Shown here piece after piece: positions 2,745 through 13,666 of a stretch of 64,000 nt of DNA (its first letter is position 1; each line of letters begins with the position of its first letter). Source of the DNA: Altererythrobacter sp. (GTDB lineage: Bacteria > Pseudomonadota > Alphaproteobacteria > Sphingomonadales > Sphingomonadaceae); NCBI GenBank assembly GCA_031178065.1, contig JAPSJS010000011.1, positions 1 to 64,000 of the forward strand, given 5' to 3'. The notes under the pieces were generated by a model. That model was given only the letters and a program-made list of their open reading frames with translations, searched no databases and was not told the origin of the DNA. The position numbers were made by a program, and so were the translations under genes.

Positions 2745-3209
2745 TTGCTGGACCTGCTGCCCCGGCTGCGCCGTTTCGCTGCCGGGCTGGCGGGCAATCC
2801 TGCGGACGGCGACGACCTCTGCCAGATGTCGCTCGAACGCGCGCTCGCCAACCGGTCCAAGTGGCAGGAGGGTACGCGCCTCGACAGTTGGATGTACAGG
2901 ATCATGCGCAACATCTGGATCGACGAGGGCCGCGCGGGGAGCCGCCGCAGGCAGACCTTCGTGGACGAGGAAGCCGGCGTGGGGCAGGGCGGCGACGGCG
3001 CGCAGGAAGCCGCGGTCGAGCTGTCCTATGTCGACCGGGCGATGCAGAAGCTGCCGTCCGACCAGCGCGAGGCGGTGCTGCTCGTGATGGTCGAAGGCTA
3101 TGCCTACAAGGAAGCAGCGGAGATCGTCGGCTGCCCGGTCGGCACGCTCAACTCGCGCCTGGTGCGCGGGCGCGACGCGCTGATGGCGATGCTGGGAGAA
3201 GCGCAATGA
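2745..3209 (+). CDS. ECF-type RNA polymerase sigma-70 factor
   Basis: About 154-162 residues with sigma region 2 (ADGDDLCQMSLERAL, then the RIMRNIWID core-binding part) and region 4 (LPSDQREAVLLVMVEGYAYK followed by the EIVGCPVGTLNSRLVRGRD helix-turn-helix). The start is uncertain. No in-frame ATG or GTG exists between the upstream stop at 2676 and the conserved core, so translation must begin at TTG 2745 or the CTG at 2721 that would add LSTKFEQD. The stop overlaps the ATG of the next gene (ATGA), which encodes its anti-sigma factor. It lies divergent to the subtilisin-like protease and presumably directs transcription of an envelope or stress regulon, released when the anti-sigma factor is inactivated. 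Confidence 0.88.
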   Translation: MLDLLPRLRRFAAGLAGNPADGDDLCQMSLERALANRSKWQEGTRLDSWMYRIMRNIWIDEGRAGSRRRQTFVDEEAGVGQGGDGAQEAAVELSYVDRAMQKLPSDQREAVLLVMVEGYAYKEAAEIVGCPVGTLNSRLVRGRDALMAMLGEAQ

Positions 3210-3904
3210 CCCTGACCAGAGAGGAACTCGCGGCTTTCGCAGACGGCGAGCTGACCGGCGAGCGCGCGGCGCAGATCGCTGCCGCCGTCGCCGCCGATCC
3301 CGCGCTGGCGGGCGAGGTCGAGGCGCACCGCGCTCTCCGTGCGCAGCTGGCTGACCATTACGCACCGGTCGCCACGGCGCCGGTGCCGGACCGCCTGACC
3401 GCCCTGCTGGCGCAGCCGCAGGAGGCCGAGGTCGTCAATTTCGCCGAAGCGAAGGAACGGCGCGCGGCACGCCGCACTATCCCGCGTTGGGGGTGGATCG
3501 TCGGGCCGGCGCTCGCAGCGTCGCTCGCGCTGGCGGTGCTCCTACCGGGGAGCGGCGACGACGGTGCGCCCTACGCCGACCCGCAGCTCGCGGGCGTTCT
3601 CGATACGCGGCTCGTGGCCGAACAGGCGCCCGGCGCGGACACGCGCATATTGCTCAGCTTCCGCGCGCAGGGCGGCGACGTCTGCCGCGTTTTCAGCGGT
3701 GAAGGCGGCGGGGGGATCGCCTGCCGCGACCAGCAGGGCTGGCGCCTCGAAGCGCTCGGCGAGGGCAGCGCCGGCGCCTCGACCGAATATCGCATGGCGG
3801 GGGCGAGCGAAGCAGCCCTGCTGAGCCGTGCGCAGGACATGGCGCAGGGCCCGGCTCTCGACGCCGCGGCGGAAGCGGAGGCGAAAGCGAACGACTGGCG
3901 CTGA
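3206..3904 (+). CDS. Membrane-anchored anti-sigma factor
   Basis: A 232-residue protein whose ATG overlaps the sigma-factor stop by 4 bp. The N-terminal ~90 residues are acidic and helical, beginning MTLTREELAAFADGELTGE, the form of many anti-sigma N-termini ('yvDGELs'). A single membrane helix follows (WGWIVGPALAASLALAVLL, about 95-113), then a periplasmic domain with one Cys pair (VCRVFSG...IACRDQQGW). The layout (cytoplasmic sigma-binding part, one TM, periplasmic sensor) plus translational coupling supports the role of holding the upstream ECF sigma factor inactive. The ORF track's longer 399-residue frame is only the same frame read through the sigma gene and is not real. Confidence 0.85.
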   Translation: MTLTREELAAFADGELTGERAAQIAAAVAADPALAGEVEAHRALRAQLADHYAPVATAPVPDRLTALLAQPQEAEVVNFAEAKERRAARRTIPRWGWIVGPALAASLALAVLLPGSGDDGAPYADPQLAGVLDTRLVAEQAPGADTRILLSFRAQGGDVCRVFSGEGGGGIACRDQQGWRLEALGEGSAGASTEYRMAGASEAALLSRAQDMAQGPALDAAAEAEAKANDWR

Positions 3905-6460: not shown

Positions 6461-6520
6461 CAAGCCGCTTCGGTGCCGCTAGGGTCCTGCGTTCAGGGAT
6501 TGGACGAGGGGACTTCCACG

Positions 6521-8692
6521 ATGCGGAAACTGGCGATTCTGGGCGCGAGCCTTCTGGTGTTTCAGGCGCAAGCCGGGCTGGCGCAGGATCAGGATCAGCA
6601 GGCGCCGCAAGAATCCCCCGCTCCGGAGAGCTCGGCAGAGCAGCGCCCCGACACGGCCATGTCGGGTTCCGCCATCGGCATGGACCGCAGCGGGCCCGAG
6701 CGGCGCTTCACCGGCGCGGACCTGTTCGACCTCGCCATCGCCGCCGACCCGCAGATCAGCCCTGACGGGCGCCATATCGCCTATGTCCGCCGCTCGAACG
6801 ACATCATGTCCGACCGCGCGGTGAGCACGATCTGGCTGATCAACACCCGCACCGGGGAGGAAGTGCCGATCGCCGGGCGCGGGGGCGATGCCTTCTCCCC
6901 TCGCTGGTCGCCCGGCGGTGACCGCCTCGCCTATGCCTCGACCGAGGGCGGCAGTCCCCAGCTATGGGTGCGCTGGATGGAGGGCGGGGAGGCGGTGCGC
7001 CTCACGGGCCTGCCGACGAGCCCGTCGAACGTGACCTGGTCGCCCGACGGCCGCTCGATCGCCTATACGATGCTGGTAAAGCAGGAGGGGCCGAAGCTCG
7101 GCGCCGCCCCCGCGAACAAGCCCGAAGGCGCCGAATGGGCCGAGCCGCTCGAGGTTCACGACCTCCTCACCTACCGCGCGGACGGGCAGGGTTACATCGA
7201 GCCGGGGTTCGAGAAGGTCTTCATCGTTCCGGCAACGGGCGGTGCGCCGCGCCAGCTCACCTTCGGCCGTTACCACGACGGCGGGCCGCTGAGCTGGTCG
7301 CCGGACGGCAGCACGCTCTACTTCGGCGCCAACCGCAGTGCCGACTGGCAGACCGATCCGCTGGAGGGCGAAATCTACGCGCTCGACGTGGCGACCGGCG
7401 GCCTCACCCGGCTGACCGACCGCGACGGCCCCGACAGCAGCCCGCTCGCCTCGCCCGATGGGAAGCTGATCGCCTATCTCGGCTTCGACGATGCCCTGCG
7501 CGCGTACGAGAACACCAATCTCTACGTCATGAACCGCGACGGTTCGGGCCGCCGCAACCTGACTGCCGACCGGGATTTCAGCGCCGCCAGTATCGCTTGG
7601 GATGCCGACAGCCGCGGCATCTACGTCCAGTACGACGAGCGGGGCGAGACCAAGGTCGCGCGCGTCGGCCTCGACGGCTCGATCCGCGAGGTGATCGGCG
7701 GGCTGTCGGGCGGCGGGTTCGACCGGCCCTATACCGGCGGCAGCTTCTCGGTCGCCGCGGACGACAGCATCGCCTTCACCGGCGGAACCGCCACGCGCCC
7801 GGCCGAAGTGCAGATCGCCCGCGGCGGCAAGGCGCGCATGCTGACCGACCTCAACCGCTCGCTGCGCGAAGTGAAGGCGCTTGGCGAAGTGCGCAAGATA
7901 ACGGCCGCATCGAGCCATGACGGTCTGGAGATCGAGGGCTGGCTGACCCTGCCGCCCGGTTACGTCGAGGGGCAGCGCGTGCCGCTGATCCTGGAGATTC
8001 ACGGCGGACCCTTCTCCGCCTACGGCCCGCATTTTTCGACCGACAACCAGCTCTATGCCGCTGCGGGCTACGCAGTGCTTTCGGCCAATCCTCGCGGTTC
8101 GACCAGCTACGGCGAGGCCTTTGCGAACCAGATCGACAAGGCCTATCCCGGCAACGACTACTTCGACCTGATGAGCATCGTCGACCGGGCGATCGCGCTG
8201 GGCATAGCCGATCCCGACGCGCTGTTCGTCACCGGCGGCTCGGGCGGCGGCGTGCTGACGAGCTGGATCGTCGGCAAGACCCGGCGCTTCAAGGCGGCGG
8301 CGACGCAGAAGCCGGTGATCAATTGGACGACGCAGGCGCTCACCGCCGATGGCCCCGCGTTCTTCGGTCACTACTGGCTTGGCGCCCAGCCGTGGGAGGA
8401 TCACGAGACCTACTGGCGGCTCTCGCCGCTGTCGCTGGTCGGCAATGTCGAGACGCCGACGCTGGTCGTGGTCGGCAGCGAGGATTACCGCACGCCAGTC
8501 AGCGAATCCGAGCAATACTATACCGCGCTGCGCCTGCGCGGCGTGCCGACGGCGCTGGTCAAGGTGCCCGGCGCCAGCCACGGCGGCATCGCGGCGCGCC
8601 CCTCGCAATCGGCCGCCAAGGCTTCGGCCATCCTCGCCTGGTTCGCCCGCTACCGCGAGGGCTGGGAGCGGCCGGCTACGCCGGCGGACTGA
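6521..8692 (+). CDS. Secreted S9-family prolyl oligopeptidase-type peptidase
   Basis: A 723-residue exported peptidase. I prefer ATG 6521 over the longer GTG start at 6473 because it follows a Shine-Dalgarno-like GAGGGGA and opens directly on a signal peptide (MRKLAILGASLLVFQAQAGLA). The N-terminal part is a WD40-like/TolB beta-propeller with repeated SPDG motifs (DPQISPDGRHIAYV, WSPDGRSIAYT, SPDGSTLYFG). The C-terminal alpha/beta hydrolase carries the triad: Ser in VTGGSGGGVLTSW, Asp in VVGSEDYRTP, His in PGASHGG. It should cleave peptides in the periplasm, probably as a dipeptidyl- or acylaminoacyl-peptidase; which one cannot be told. The propeller usually excludes large substrates. Confidence 0.92.
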   Translation: MRKLAILGASLLVFQAQAGLAQDQDQQAPQESPAPESSAEQRPDTAMSGSAIGMDRSGPERRFTGADLFDLAIAADPQISPDGRHIAYVRRSNDIMSDRAVSTIWLINTRTGEEVPIAGRGGDAFSPRWSPGGDRLAYASTEGGSPQLWVRWMEGGEAVRLTGLPTSPSNVTWSPDGRSIAYTMLVKQEGPKLGAAPANKPEGAEWAEPLEVHDLLTYRADGQGYIEPGFEKVFIVPATGGAPRQLTFGRYHDGGPLSWSPDGSTLYFGANRSADWQTDPLEGEIYALDVATGGLTRLTDRDGPDSSPLASPDGKLIAYLGFDDALRAYENTNLYVMNRDGSGRRNLTADRDFSAASIAWDADSRGIYVQYDERGETKVARVGLDGSIREVIGGLSGGGFDRPYTGGSFSVAADDSIAFTGGTATRPAEVQIARGGKARMLTDLNRSLREVKALGEVRKITAASSHDGLEIEGWLTLPPGYVEGQRVPLILEIHGGPFSAYGPHFSTDNQLYAAAGYAVLSANPRGSTSYGEAFANQIDKAYPGNDYFDLMSIVDRAIALGIADPDALFVTGGSGGGVLTSWIVGKTRRFKAAATQKPVINWTTQALTADGPAFFGHYWLGAQPWEDHETYWRLSPLSLVGNVETPTLVVVGSEDYRTPVSESEQYYTALRLRGVPTALVKVPGASHGGIAARPSQSAAKASAILAWFARYREGWERPATPAD

Positions 8693-8725
8693 CGGCGCCG
8701 GCAGAAATTTTTCACGCGCGCGTAC

Positions 8726-8749
8726 GGAAATCCGTCCGCCATGCATCGT
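8726..8749 (+). promoter_or_regulatory. FecI-type ECF promoter of the fecI-like gene
   Basis: GGAAA, ten bases, then ATGCATCGT. The same GGAAA-N10-ATGCATCGT arrangement with identical spacing recurs at 10377-10400 upstream of the TonB-dependent receptor. GGAAA as -35 and CGT as -10 core with 16-bp spacing fit the general ECF promoter form. This implies that the sigma factor activates both its own gene and the receptor gene. Confidence 0.65.
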
Positions 8750-8778
8750 GCCTGGAATGGGGGGTGTAGCAGCGCGCC

Positions 8779-9369
8779 GTGAGCAGGCAGAGCCGCGAGA
8801 GGATCATGGCTTGGGTGGGGAGCGAGATCCTTCCCCACGAGAGCGACGTGCGCGCCTGGCTTCGCCGCACGCTCGATCCCGCCGATATCGAGGACGTCGT
8901 GCAGGAAGCCTATTGCCAGATCGCGCGGCTCGACGAGATCGGCCATATCCGTAGCGGCCGCGCCTATTTTTTCACCACCGCGCGCCACATCGTCCTCATG
9001 CAGCTCAGGCGCGCGCGCGTGGTGCGGATCGATTCGGTTACGGAAATCGATAACCTGAACATCGTTCTGGATGAGCCCTCGCCGGAGCGGGTGGCGGGCG
9101 GCCGCCGCGAGCTGGAGCGTGTGCGGCGGCTGATCGAAGGGCTGCCCGAGCGATGCCGGAGGATATTCGAGCTGCGCAAGATCGAAGGCCTGCCGCAGCG
9201 CGAGGTGGCCCGCCGGCTGGGCGTGACCGAGCACGTGGTGGAGAACGACGTCGGCAAGGGTCTCAAACTGATTCTGCAAGCGATCGCGGAGGGGGAGCGG
9301 AACGCCGAGCAGGCATTGACGGAAATGGCACGAGATGAGCGAGCGCGAGACAGCACAGGCGATCTCTGA
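8779..9369 (+). CDS. FecI-like ECF sigma factor
   Basis: A 196-residue sigma-70 family protein from GTG 8779. ATG 8806, preceded by GAGAGG, is an equally plausible start giving MAWVGSEILPHESDVRAWL. Region 2 is seen in DPADIEDVVQEAYCQIARLD with TTARHIVLMQLRRARV. Region 4 is seen in LPERCRRIFELRKIEGLPQREVARRLGVTEHVVENDVGKG. The immediate neighbours, fecR-like gene and TonB receptor, define a cell-surface signalling system: ligand-loaded receptor, periplasmic FecR, cytoplasmic sigma factor. The 3' end overlaps the fecR start by 35 bp, implying translational coupling. Autoregulation is suggested by the promoter motif shared with the receptor. Confidence 0.9.
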   Translation: MSRQSRERIMAWVGSEILPHESDVRAWLRRTLDPADIEDVVQEAYCQIARLDEIGHIRSGRAYFFTTARHIVLMQLRRARVVRIDSVTEIDNLNIVLDEPSPERVAGGRRELERVRRLIEGLPERCRRIFELRKIEGLPQREVARRLGVTEHVVENDVGKGLKLILQAIAEGERNAEQALTEMARDERARDSTGDL

Positions 9370-10354
9370 TCGCGCGGCCGAGTGGGTCGCCCGCATCGAC
9401 CGCGAAGGCGGCGACGCGGCCGCGCGTGCCGAACTGGAGGCCTGGCTCGCCGGGGACGAACGCCGGCGCGGCGCCTATTTTCGCGCGCAGGCGGCATGGC
9501 GCATGCTCGACCGGGCGAGCGTTCTGGGCGCCGGCCAGGCTCCGGCGCAAGAGGCCGTCCCGGAGGCACTAGAGGGCGAGGTCCAGGCGGACCTGTTCCA
9601 CGCCGATCGCGGACGCGCACTGCCGCGCCGACGGGTCCTCTGGGGCGCCGGTGCTGCCATTGCGGCGAGCCTGGCGGCCGGTCTGTTCGTCCCCGGGATC
9701 CTCCAGCCCCCGTCGCAACGGATCGAGACCGCGCTGGGCGAAATCCGGCGCGTGCCGCTGGAGGATGGCTCGCTTGCGGCGGTCAACACCCAGACGACGC
9801 TGGACGTCACACTCACCCCCGAGGTGCGCGAGATCGAGCTGGCACGGGGCGAGGTATGGTTCCAGGTCGCCAAGGACCGGACGCGGCCATTCGTGGTCGA
9901 AGCCGGCGAGGTGCGGGTGAAGGCCGTCGGCACCGCCTTCGCCGTGCACCGCACGGGCGGCGGGGTCGAGGTTCAGGTCACCGAAGGCACCGTCGAGGTC
10001 TGGCGCGACGGGGAGGCGGGGGCGCTCCGCCGCGTCTCCGCCGGCATGCGCACGTTCGTCGGCAAGACGCCCGGCGCGCCGCAGGTGGTCGCCACCGGTG
10101 AAGAGATCGACCGCTCGCTTTCGTGGCGCACGGGTCAGCTCGTCTTCGAAGGCGACACGGTGGCGGAGGCCGCTGCCGCGTTCAATCGCTACAACGCGGT
10201 CAAGCTGGAGATCGCCGACCCGGCGCTGGGGCAGGAAAAGATGATCGGCCGCTTCCGGACCAACGAACCCGACGCCTTCGCCCGCGCGGCGGCGGCGCTG
10301 CTCGACGCCCGTGTCGAGATCGGGCCCGGCCGGATCGTGCTGTCGCGAAAGTGA
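9335..10354 (+). CDS. FecR-like anti-sigma/signal transducer
   Basis: A 339-residue inner-membrane protein. The N-terminal ~75 residues match the cytoplasmic DUF4880-type domain (AAEWVARIDREGGDAAARAELEAWLAGDERRRGAY). One TM helix follows (VLWGAGAAIAASLAAGLFVPG, about 94-114), then the periplasmic FecR domain with the characteristic FVVEAGEVRVKAVGTAFAVH and VTEGTVEVW strands. A C-terminal STN-like interaction segment (FNRYNAVKLEI) comes last. It relays the state of the TonB-dependent receptor to the FecI-like sigma factor encoded immediately upstream. The genes overlap by 35 bp. Confidence 0.92.
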   Translation: MSERETAQAISDRAAEWVARIDREGGDAAARAELEAWLAGDERRRGAYFRAQAAWRMLDRASVLGAGQAPAQEAVPEALEGEVQADLFHADRGRALPRRRVLWGAGAAIAASLAAGLFVPGILQPPSQRIETALGEIRRVPLEDGSLAAVNTQTTLDVTLTPEVREIELARGEVWFQVAKDRTRPFVVEAGEVRVKAVGTAFAVHRTGGGVEVQVTEGTVEVWRDGEAGALRRVSAGMRTFVGKTPGAPQVVATGEEIDRSLSWRTGQLVFEGDTVAEAAAAFNRYNAVKLEIADPALGQEKMIGRFRTNEPDAFARAAAALLDARVEIGPGRIVLSRK

Positions 10355-10376
10355 CAGAAAGGGCCGCGGCGGAAAC

Positions 10377-10400
10377 GGAAAAGCCTACGTGATGCATCGT
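10377..10400 (+). promoter_or_regulatory. FecI-type ECF promoter of the TonB-dependent receptor
   Basis: GGAAA-N10-ATGCATCGT, identical in motif and spacing to the element at 8726-8749. It lies 44 bp upstream of the receptor ATG and just after the fecR stop codon, giving the receptor its own promoter in addition to any read-through. Confidence 0.65.
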
Positions 10401-10444
10401 AGTCATGGGACCCGAACAACGGGCGATGACATGGGAGGGATTAC

Positions 10445-13400
10445 ATGCGGTATCGCGATCTTCGCGGCGCTCTTGCGGCTTCGGCGGCTGTCTGCGCGGT
10501 TGCCGTGGCCACGCCGGCCACGGCGCAGACGAGAACCTTCGACGTGCCGGCCCAATCGGCGGCGACCGGCATTCCCGCCGTGGCCGCCCAGGCCGAAGTG
10601 CAGATCCTGGTCAGCGCGGCGGCGGTGCGGGGCAAGTCGATCCGCGCGCTGAAAGGCGCGATGACGGTCGACCAGGCGATCCGCCGCATCGCCGCCGACG
10701 CCGGCCTGCGCGTAGTATCGAGCGACGACAGCACCTACGCGCTGGCGCCCGCTCCGGCCCCGAGCCCCTCCGCCACCGCGACCCCGTCTGCGGAGCCCTA
10801 CCGTCCTGATGTCATCATCGTCACCGCGCAGAAGCGCGAGGAATCGATCCAAGAGGTGCCGATCGCGGTGACGGCGCTTTCGAGCGAGGATCTGGATGCG
10901 CGGAAAATCGAAGGCGGATCGGAACTGCTGCGGGCTGTGCCGAACGTGAACTTCTCCAAAAGCAACTTCAGCATGTACAATTTCTCGATCCGCGGCATCG
11001 GGACAAAGGCGATCTCGGCCGCGTCGGATCCGGCGGTCGCAGTCAGCTTCAACAACATTCCGCTCATCCGCAACCGCCTGTTCGAGTCGGAGTTCTTCGA
11101 CATGGAACGGATCGAGGTGCTGCGCGGCCCGCAGGGCACCCTCTACGGCCGCAACGCGACCGCGGGCGTGGTCAATATGCTTCCTTCGCTCCCTGAATAT
11201 TCGGAGTTCAGCGGACAGGTGAAGGCTGAGTCCGGCAGCTATGACACCCGCCGGCTCAGCGGTCATATCAATGTGCCGCTCGGCGACACTCTGTCGGTGC
11301 GCGCCGCCGGCATGATGACCAAGCGCGATGGCTACGATTTCAACACATATACGAACAAGCGGGTAAACGGGCGCAACCTGTGGTCGACCCGCCTGTCGGT
11401 GGGCTGGGAGCCAAGCGATAACTTTAGCGCGTCCTTCATCTGGCAGCATTTCGAGGAGGACGACAACCGCTCTCGGACGGGCAAACAGCTCTGCACGCGG
11501 GACCCCGGACCGACTGAGGTCGGCGACACCATCGTTCCGTACGCCTACATGCAAGCGAAGCTCAGTCAGGGTTGCCGACCCAGCAGTCTGTACAATGATG
11601 CAGCGTTCGGTGCGCCAAATCTGCTGGGCTCATCGCAAATCTTTGCGGCTGCTATACAGCGAGCCGGGATTGACCCCGTGACCGGTCAGCCGGTGCAGGG
11701 TCTTCCTTTCGATCGTTTCCCTTACGGAGATGTCGTTCAATCACGTAATCTGCGCGAGATAGAAACAAGTTATGATCCCGTCTTTCGTGCCAAGAACGAT
11801 ATTTTTCAACTCAACTTCGGGTTGGATATGGGCAATGTCACGTTATATTCCCAGACCGCCTTTGCAAAGGACAGATACTATTCGTCGCAAGACTACAACC
11901 GCTTTGTGTCCGCGCCGCTATTTCCGGACAGTGCGGTTCTTGTCGATGACAGCGGCAACCCCCTTCCGAACGGCGGTCTGACCCCCGGGGGCATCTATAC
12001 CGATCCTCAGCTAGGCCCATCTGACCGGTGGTTGTCCGTGGATATAAGCCAGTCTGAAAATGAGCAGTGGTTCCAGGAAGTGCGCCTTACATCCGATATG
12101 GATGGATCCATCAACTTCAATGTCGGTGCGAACTATCTAAACTTCGATACTCAGGACGATTATTATGTATTGAGTAACATATTTACTTACATCTCCGAAG
12201 TGTTCTTGAATAGAAGAGGAAATGTTACTATAGATTGTTCCCAGCCCGAAAATGTGGCAACGGAATGCATCTATGTCGACCCCTACCCAGTTGATCAGAT
12301 TAATGGGGAGGGGCACAATTATTTCCGCAGCAAGAATGTCGTCAAAATCGAATCTTGGGGTGCGTTTGGCGAATTCTATTGGGACGTGACCGAAAGCCTC
12401 AAGGTCACAGTTGGCGGTCGCTACACAAAAGACACCAAAACGACCACGCCGATCCCGACGCAGCTGCTGCTTGGCGCGCAAAATTTCGGTCAGGATACAG
12501 GCAATACTACGGGCGGGTACATCAGCCGAGGATTCCGCGAGTTCCCGAATAGTATGCTGAAATCCGACGCCTTTACTGGTCGCTTCGTGGTGGACTGGCA
12601 GCCGATGACCTCGTTCAGCGACGACACGCTCGTCTACGCCTCGGTGTCGCGTGGATACAAGGCCGGCGGGAGCAATCCACCTCGCATCGATGTCGACCCG
12701 CGGGTCATCCAGTATGAGCCGCTCCCGGCGGATTTCGACCCTGAATATGTTACGGCCTTCGAAATCGGTACGAAGAACAGTTTCGCAGGCGGACGTTTGT
12801 CCCTCAACGCGACCGCCTTCCTGAATCTCTACAAGGATTATCAGGTCTCCCAGATCGTTGACCGGATTTCGCTGAACGAGAATTTCGACGCTACCACCTG
12901 GGGTGCGGAACTGGAGGCCGCTTGGAGCCCGACGGAGCGGTTCCAGGTCGATGCAACCCTTGGCTTCCTGCAGACGCGGATCGGGGACGGAGAGCAATCG
13001 ATCGACGTGATGAACCGCACCCAAGGCGACGAAGACTGGGTTCTGCTTCGGCCGTCGCCCGCCGTGCCGTCCAATTGCATCGCGCCGCGGGACAAGGTCG
13101 AGATCATAATGAACAGCTTTCTAGCGACGCCTCCGGACGGGGGGCTTGCCAACTTTGCCCTGGGGTCCCTGTGCGCTGGATCAATCAAGTACGGTAGTTT
13201 TGACCCGGAACGGGAGGGCCTTCCGTTTTATGCACTCTTTGGCTTCACGTACGACCCCTTGACCGACCCGCCTAACGGCGGTCGCGGGTTTTATTCTGAT
13301 CTGTCGGGCAACGAGCTTCCCAATGCGCCGCATCTGACCTTCAATATCGGCGCGCAGTATACGCTACCGATCGACGGCGGCGATTGGCAGTTGACTCTGC

Positions 13401-13666
13401 GCGGAGACTATTATCGTCAGTCGGAAAGCTACGCCCGGGTGTACAATACCGAGATCGATCGACTCCGGGCGTGGGACAACGTCAACGCCGCCATCACTTT
13501 GGTGCGGCCGGATGATGATTTCGCGCTACAGCTCTACGTGAAGAACGTGTTCAACGACGTGCCGATCACCGATTTCTTTCTGAACAGCGACGACACCGGT
13601 CTGACAGCCAACGTCTTCACCCTCGATCCGCGCATCATCGGCTTCAGCGTGACCAAGGGGTTCTAG
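10445..13666 (+). CDS. TonB-dependent outer-membrane receptor with N-terminal STN signalling domain
   Basis: A 1073-residue receptor. After a signal peptide (ending ATPATAQ) lies an STN domain (about 30-100; FDVPAQSAATGIPAVAAQAE) of the kind that contacts FecR. The plug domain follows, with a TonB-box-like DVIIVTAQKREESIQEVPIAV and ERIEVLRGPQGTLYGRNATAGVVN. A long 22-strand barrel ends in the expected C-terminal Phe (GFSVTKGF). It imports an energy-dependent substrate across the outer membrane; the family is of the iron-complex/'TonB-dependent receptor' kind common in sphingomonads, which may equally take up carbohydrates or aromatic-derived compounds. The middle of the barrel (about 11.3-13.3 kb) is markedly poorer in G+C than its surroundings, suggesting recombination. 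Confidence 0.92.
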   Translation: MRYRDLRGALAASAAVCAVAVATPATAQTRTFDVPAQSAATGIPAVAAQAEVQILVSAAAVRGKSIRALKGAMTVDQAIRRIAADAGLRVVSSDDSTYALAPAPAPSPSATATPSAEPYRPDVIIVTAQKREESIQEVPIAVTALSSEDLDARKIEGGSELLRAVPNVNFSKSNFSMYNFSIRGIGTKAISAASDPAVAVSFNNIPLIRNRLFESEFFDMERIEVLRGPQGTLYGRNATAGVVNMLPSLPEYSEFSGQVKAESGSYDTRRLSGHINVPLGDTLSVRAAGMMTKRDGYDFNTYTNKRVNGRNLWSTRLSVGWEPSDNFSASFIWQHFEEDDNRSRTGKQLCTRDPGPTEVGDTIVPYAYMQAKLSQGCRPSSLYNDAAFGAPNLLGSSQIFAAAIQRAGIDPVTGQPVQGLPFDRFPYGDVVQSRNLREIETSYDPVFRAKNDIFQLNFGLDMGNVTLYSQTAFAKDRYYSSQDYNRFVSAPLFPDSAVLVDDSGNPLPNGGLTPGGIYTDPQLGPSDRWLSVDISQSENEQWFQEVRLTSDMDGSINFNVGANYLNFDTQDDYYVLSNIFTYISEVFLNRRGNVTIDCSQPENVATECIYVDPYPVDQINGEGHNYFRSKNVVKIESWGAFGEFYWDVTESLKVTVGGRYTKDTKTTTPIPTQLLLGAQNFGQDTGNTTGGYISRGFREFPNSMLKSDAFTGRFVVDWQPMTSFSDDTLVYASVSRGYKAGGSNPPRIDVDPRVIQYEPLPADFDPEYVTAFEIGTKNSFAGGRLSLNATAFLNLYKDYQVSQIVDRISLNENFDATTWGAELEAAWSPTERFQVDATLGFLQTRIGDGEQSIDVMNRTQGDEDWVLLRPSPAVPSNCIAPRDKVEIIMNSFLATPPDGGLANFALGSLCAGSIKYGSFDPEREGLPFYALFGFTYDPLTDPPNGGRGFYSDLSGNELPNAPHLTFNIGAQYTLPIDGGDWQLTLRGDYYRQSESYARVYNTEIDRLRAWDNVNAAITLVRPDDDFALQLYVKNVFNDVPITDFFLNSDDTGLTANVFTLDPRIIGFSVTKGF

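Follow-up and report, generated by a model that had tools for sequence, protein, structure and literature searches.

The DNA analysed here, a window of 64,000 nucleotides, encodes a module of the FecI/FecR/FecA type whose sigma factor would read two like promoters (ACGGAAA/CATCGT), one preceding its own operon and the other the receptor gene, a design that would combine positive feedback with a private promoter address; as judged from the sequence, the probability of this reading is about 85%. The host is a Pelagerythrobacter-like alphaproteobacterium. Altererythrobacter sp. C41 and Pelagerythrobacter rhizovicinus are the closest relatives. The features of the module are the following:

8705..8712, + strand: A/T tract AAATTTTT, 14-21 nt upstream of the P1 -35 element
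8724..8730, + strand: putative -35 element ACGGAAA of P1 (sigma gene), the extended -35 (GAC)GGAAA of the alignment
8726-8749, + strand: whole motif of predicted promoter P1, GGAAATCCGTCCGCCATGCATCGT; exact match, supported by matrix rank
8744..8749, + strand: putative -10 element CATCGT of P1 (sigma gene), family pattern nnTC(T/G)T
8779..9369, + strand: FecI-like ECF sigma factor of 196 aa that starts at GTG, with an ATG at 8806 as the alternative
9335..10354, + strand: FecR-like anti-sigma factor or sigma regulator, 339 aa; Pfam FecR (PF04773) 7e-20, DUF4880 2.3e-5
10375..10381, + strand: putative -35 element ACGGAAA of P2 (receptor), exact match
10377-10400, + strand: whole motif of predicted promoter P2, GGAAAAGCCTACGTGATGCATCGT; exact match, supported by matrix rank, same -35 and -10 in the orthologous loci L035 and L036
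10395..10400, + strand: putative -10 element CATCGT of P2 (receptor), family pattern nnTC(T/G)T
10445..13666, + strand: TonB-dependent receptor of 1073 aa whose N-terminus carries an STN signalling domain; Pfam barrel 4.1e-35, Plug 1.3e-17, STN 4e-5

Regarding the proteins, the first is an ECF sigma factor with regions 2 and 4 only (Pfam Sigma70_r4_2 7.2e-13, Sigma70_r2 4.4e-6; sigma70-ECF 4.1e-22); with 50 bits against the 260 required by the FecI equivalog model (NCBIfam NF041727), it falls far short of FecI itself. The FecR reading frame overlaps that of the sigma factor and sits between P1 with the sigma gene and P2, and DUF4880 makes up the N-terminus of its product. In the receptor, the STN domain reaches 28.7 bits against a cut-off of 28.4 in the genome search, and 23.8 bits, below the cut-off, in the whole-protein scan; the closest solved structures are ferripyoverdine receptors, one of which is the top PDB hit, for residues 17-306. 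By its domains, this gene set is that of FecI/FecR/FecA cell-surface signalling. The genome contains a second clear FecI-like system on contig C48 (sigma factor 45% identical) plus weaker relatives, and it encodes further ECF sigma factors; in the window, the stretch 2745-3904 (+) has a second ECF sigma, with regions 2 and 4 and PhyR-sigma2-like, that overlaps a reading frame resembling an anti-sigma factor. Directly upstream of the module lies a gene of the S9 prolyl-oligopeptidase family (6473-8692, +), a neighbour that is also found in both orthologous loci; a link of this peptidase to lasso peptides was dropped, since it resembles the lasso-peptide isopeptidase model only weakly (139.8 bits, against 400).

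The window has two exact copies of GGAAA-N10-ATGCATCGT, both on the + strand, and the original prediction of one motif with one spacing ahead of both the sigma gene and the receptor held exactly; its positions were right too, except that 8726-8749 and 10377-10400 are the promoters and not the genes. The P1 motif starts 53 nt upstream of the GTG of the sigma reading frame (8779-9369), and that of P2 68 nt upstream of the ATG of the receptor (10445-13666). The motif was absent from all window shuffles (0/100), and in the whole genome (G000; 3,168,910 bases, 3.17 Mb) P1 and P2 are its only exact copies, with no one-mismatch copy. Independently of the window clade, a matrix built from 84 promoter sites of other systems, with that clade excluded, ranked the two sites 1st and 2nd among 127,760 scored window positions (33.5 and 26.0; next 14.7). 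Upstream of P1, the A/T tract AAATTTTT is kept in both orthologous loci and is missing at P2; it is similar to the distal portion of an UP element, and may act as such. Transcription is predicted to start near 8756-8757 at P1, from the purines conserved at columns 31-32 of the alignment described below, and near 10407-10408 at P2.

Besides P1 and P2, one more exact match to the shorter core ACGGAAA-N13-CATCGT falls within the sigma gene (9040-9065, +); it is third by matrix rank (14.7 vs 12.7 for the next site) and is also kept in L035 and L036. Its use as a promoter was rejected, although not disproved: the conserved codons TEIDNLNIV spell it, and the N15 spacing is not enriched inside sigma or fecR genes, so that a coding coincidence is most likely. 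The five one-mismatch matches to this core in the genome were likewise rejected as further targets, each being inside a long open frame. Hence the expectation of a regulon with more members was not borne out, as no further target was found in this genome with up to one mismatch in either the full motif or the shorter core. As for other signals, no Fur-box-like sequence scored above shuffles at P1 or P2, so that iron control is not indicated; no sigma-70-like promoter was seen on the stretch upstream of the sigma gene; the Rfam search gave no match; and an inverted repeat, CTACG..CGTAG at 10385-10402, spans the -10 of P2 and is absent at P1.

The two orthologous loci clarify how the motif has to be parsed. 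Their receptor promoters both keep GGAAA-N10-ATGCATCGT, while those of their sigma genes read GGAAA/GGAAC-N10-GTGCATCGT or GCGCATCGT, GGAAC being the form in L036; a Brevundimonas system carries ACGCATCGT at the corresponding place. Across orthologues, CATCGT and GGAA(A) hold and the letters before CATCGT vary, so that the extended ATGCAT is partly accidental. Consequently, the motif had been mis-parsed as a CGT core with an ATGCAT extension: CATCGT is the putative -10, and the preceding ATG varies even in the closest orthologues. Nor is the spacing in GGAAA-N16-CGT unusual: it is that of the PvdS box and of the EcfG motif (PMC2235872, PMC7083833), which makes the geometry ordinary. The real signature in related sigma/FecR loci is (GAC)GGAAA-N13-nnTC(T/G)T, with strictly fixed spacing and an upstream A/T tract; its invariant part is the TC 15 nt after GGAAA, and CATC(G/T)T is the -10 hexamer.

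This signature emerged from a survey of 104 related sigma/FecR loci, in which two regions were scanned, the 150 nt preceding the sigma gene and the sequence that follows fecR; the latter was taken as the receptor promoter region, receptor homology being checked by tblastn in L035-L045 and a few loci of the window's own genome. A class-wide search for related sigma factors added one other genome at the chosen cut-off. With a scoring and tests designed after the data had been seen, GGAA(n)-N15-TC occurred before the sigma gene in 32/91 nonredundant regions (mean 5.5, maximum 8 for the other spacings, from 6 to 25) and after fecR in 55/89 (mean 8.5, maximum 14); the N15 peak repeats in the 19 last-fetched loci alone (9 upstream of sigma, 13 after fecR). 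Among 90 nonredundant loci, the motif is present in both places in 30, behind fecR alone in 26, ahead of the sigma gene alone in 2 and in neither place in 32, and for this reason the self-promoter is common but not universal. Alignment of 65 nonredundant sites gave (T)GACGGAAA and the -10 hexamer nnTC(T/G)T with a G just ahead of it; the fifth base of GGAAn is A in 68% and C in 8%. Columns 31-32 are a purine pair, which fits a transcription start, and columns -22 to -15 strongly favour A at first and T afterwards, a tract resembling, and perhaps working as, the distal half of an UP element. In 8/30 systems (L051, L055, L058, L061, L080, L084, L155 and L159) the TGA stop codon of fecR forms part of the -35 of the next promoter (TGACGGAAA-like); in the Sphingopyxis locus L043 the sigma and receptor genes point away from each other, and the intergenic region between them has a GGAAA-N10 site on each strand.

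Within a system the two promoters match each other. Over 30 nonredundant systems, the -10 flanks beside TC agree at 0.69 vs 0.37 after permutation (z 7.6) and the -35 extension before GGAAA at 0.83 vs 0.55 (z 7.5), whereas spacers and outer flanks of the same cognate pairs (n=30) match at chance level; with the spacers unrelated, neither species-wide composition nor a copied promoter is a ready explanation. In one genome with six systems, the true pairing by -10 letters was equalled by just 1/720 permutations. The matching letters also follow the sigma factor: distances between -35 extensions track the recognition helix of region 4.2 (partial r 0.44), those between -10 flanks region 2.3/2.4 (partial r 0.24), figures that are inflated by sigma relatedness and count as supporting, not decisive; the control columns gave little signal. 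The strongest residue for column -2 was N156, in the recognition helix (z 12.4), and those for column 19 were M74, T66 and V72; whole-domain partial correlations for the -10 (sigma2 0.12 vs sigma4 0.19) gave no clean separation. Together, pair matching and co-variation support the reading of both promoters of a system by one cognate sigma factor, and point to positive autoregulation. One relative, with the genome G255, has at least nine FecI-like sigma loci, six of which (L048, L075, L076, L078, L082 and L088) have distinct, internally matching promoter pairs.

On this evidence P1 and P2 appear to be a real, well-supported promoter pair. The proposal of a concrete promoter common to the sigma gene and the receptor is strengthened by the orthologues and by a fixed-spacing motif in about 100 related loci, and autoregulation of this FecI-type sigma factor gains from the same evidence plus the co-variation of cognate pairs. 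The motif is also strong evidence, at the level of sequence, for a putative ECF promoter from which the cognate sigma factor would transcribe the receptor gene. In the mechanism proposed, whose order from receptor to FecR to sigma is taken from the known family (PMC9249621), ligand binding by the receptor would let its STN domain signal via FecR, and the relay would free the sigma factor; this would then transcribe the receptor gene from P2 and its own sigma-fecR operon from P1 in a positive feedback, with the co-produced FecR as a brake. The letters that flank the TC of the -10, with those that immediately precede GGAAA, would be the private address of the system, while other systems, also within one genome, would have different but internally matching addresses. 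The gene content, the two sites, their conservation and fixed spacing, the matching of the pairs and the co-variation with the sigma factor are read from the sequence; we infer in this scheme the use of the sites by RNA polymerase, the start sites, the direction of control, the sensing of a ligand and the insulation between systems.

Of the other explanations considered, a cascade is unlikely: here the sigma factor would read the receptor promoter only, and P1 would be used by another, related ECF sigma. Candidates exist, namely the second FecI-like system on C48 and the further ECF sigma factors of the genome, and sigma-to-sigma cascades have been discussed for ECFs (PMC3817407). Against them, P1 and P2 have identical -35 and -10 letters, in the 30 systems each sigma-gene promoter agrees with the receptor promoter of its own system and not with those of the others, also within one genome, and the candidate sites of C48 differ in the -10 (CTCTCT before the sigma gene, CATCCA before the receptor). 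It is quite improbable, too, that P1 and P2 are general-stress EcfG promoters, with the sigma gene and the receptor stress-induced rather than self-induced, despite the equal -35/-10 distance of GGAAC-N16-CGTT, documented in Sphingopyxis (PMC7083833), and the GGAAC of the L036 sigma promoter; P1 and P2 carry GGAAA and CGTG/CGTA instead of GGAAC and CGTT, the same base preference prevails in the 65-site alignment, where CGTT after the spacer is missing in most sites, and the letters private to each pair co-vary with the FecI-like sigma.

That the shared ATGCATCG is the operator of a transcription factor instead of a sigma -10 would explain why ATGCAT is palindromic and why an inverted repeat flanks the receptor site, and yet this is very unlikely: orthologues retain CATCGT but have GTGCAT or GCGCAT in place of the palindrome, P1 lacks the flanking repeat, and the spacing from GGAAA stays constant in many related loci. 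Finally, the third core copy inside the sigma gene, itself apparently a coding coincidence, is what could suggest that the duplicated motif arose by chance or as a duplication artefact without function; the shuffles, the uniqueness in the genome, the matrix ranks and the conservation in related loci make chance very unlikely, and the surroundings of P1 and P2 differ, which excludes a recent duplication, so that hardly any weight is left to this explanation. The reading of both promoters by the cognate sigma factor is preferred over all of these.

In the relatives, the differently spelled but matching pairs suggest that each switch is self-amplifying and wired apart from the others. On balance it seems probable that the FecI-type systems of Sphingomonadales and some Caulobacterales form a large set of modules that amplify themselves, that each uses a promoter spelling of its own, matched by the recognition helix and region 2.3/2.4 of its sigma factor, and that the many systems of one cell are thereby separated through their promoters. 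This would contradict the view that FecI-like sigma factors do not autoregulate. FecI-like sigma factors are among the most numerous ECF sigma factors; the fixed-spacing motif and the sigma-matched promoter pairs offer a direct route to predict targets in sphingomonads and allow testing whether multiple FecI-type systems in one cell are insulated, and promoter pairs co-varying with sigma residues are a source of orthogonal sigma/promoter parts.

Compared with known systems, the module shares with FecI/FecR/FecA of E. coli the joint encoding of an ECF sigma factor, FecR and a TonB-dependent receptor with an STN domain; GGAAA and a downstream TC precede the receptor gene in both, but they are 19 nt apart upstream of E. 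coli fecA and 15 here. The E. coli fecIR operon is Fur-regulated and not autoregulated (PMC9249621), whereas here there is no Fur-box-like sequence and a predicted sigma-type promoter lies upstream of the sigma gene; Fur control without autoregulation is taken as a trait of the E. coli type of system rather than of the whole family. Autoregulation is also absent in hemI of S. maltophilia (PMC12772443), and the search for a FecI promoter motif in S. meliloti (Sinorhizobium) gave none (PMC6180224). The PvdS box of Pseudomonas (TAAAT-N16-CGT) spaces its -35 and -10 identically and likewise has a CGT in the latter (PMC2235872), but the -35 here is GGAAA and not TAAAT, CGT is just one variant of TC(T/G)T, and there is no sign of a siderophore regulon. 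EcfG promoters (GGAAC-N16-CGTT) have the same geometry and a similar -35, and are found in the same bacterial family (PMC7083833); they differ in the C at the fifth base, where A is found here, and in their CGTT, in place of which the present sites have a system-specific -10. With the autoregulated ECF sigma/anti-sigma modules in general, the present one shares a sigma gene preceded by a promoter that its product would read, although the FecI-like groups ECF05-10 were explicitly left out of the survey of Rhodius et al. as not autoregulating (PMC3817407). Related motifs may already figure in the recent full reclassification of ECF sigma factors; with that reserve, the module differs from the known systems in the predicted sigma-type promoter ahead of its own sigma gene and in a spelling private to the system.
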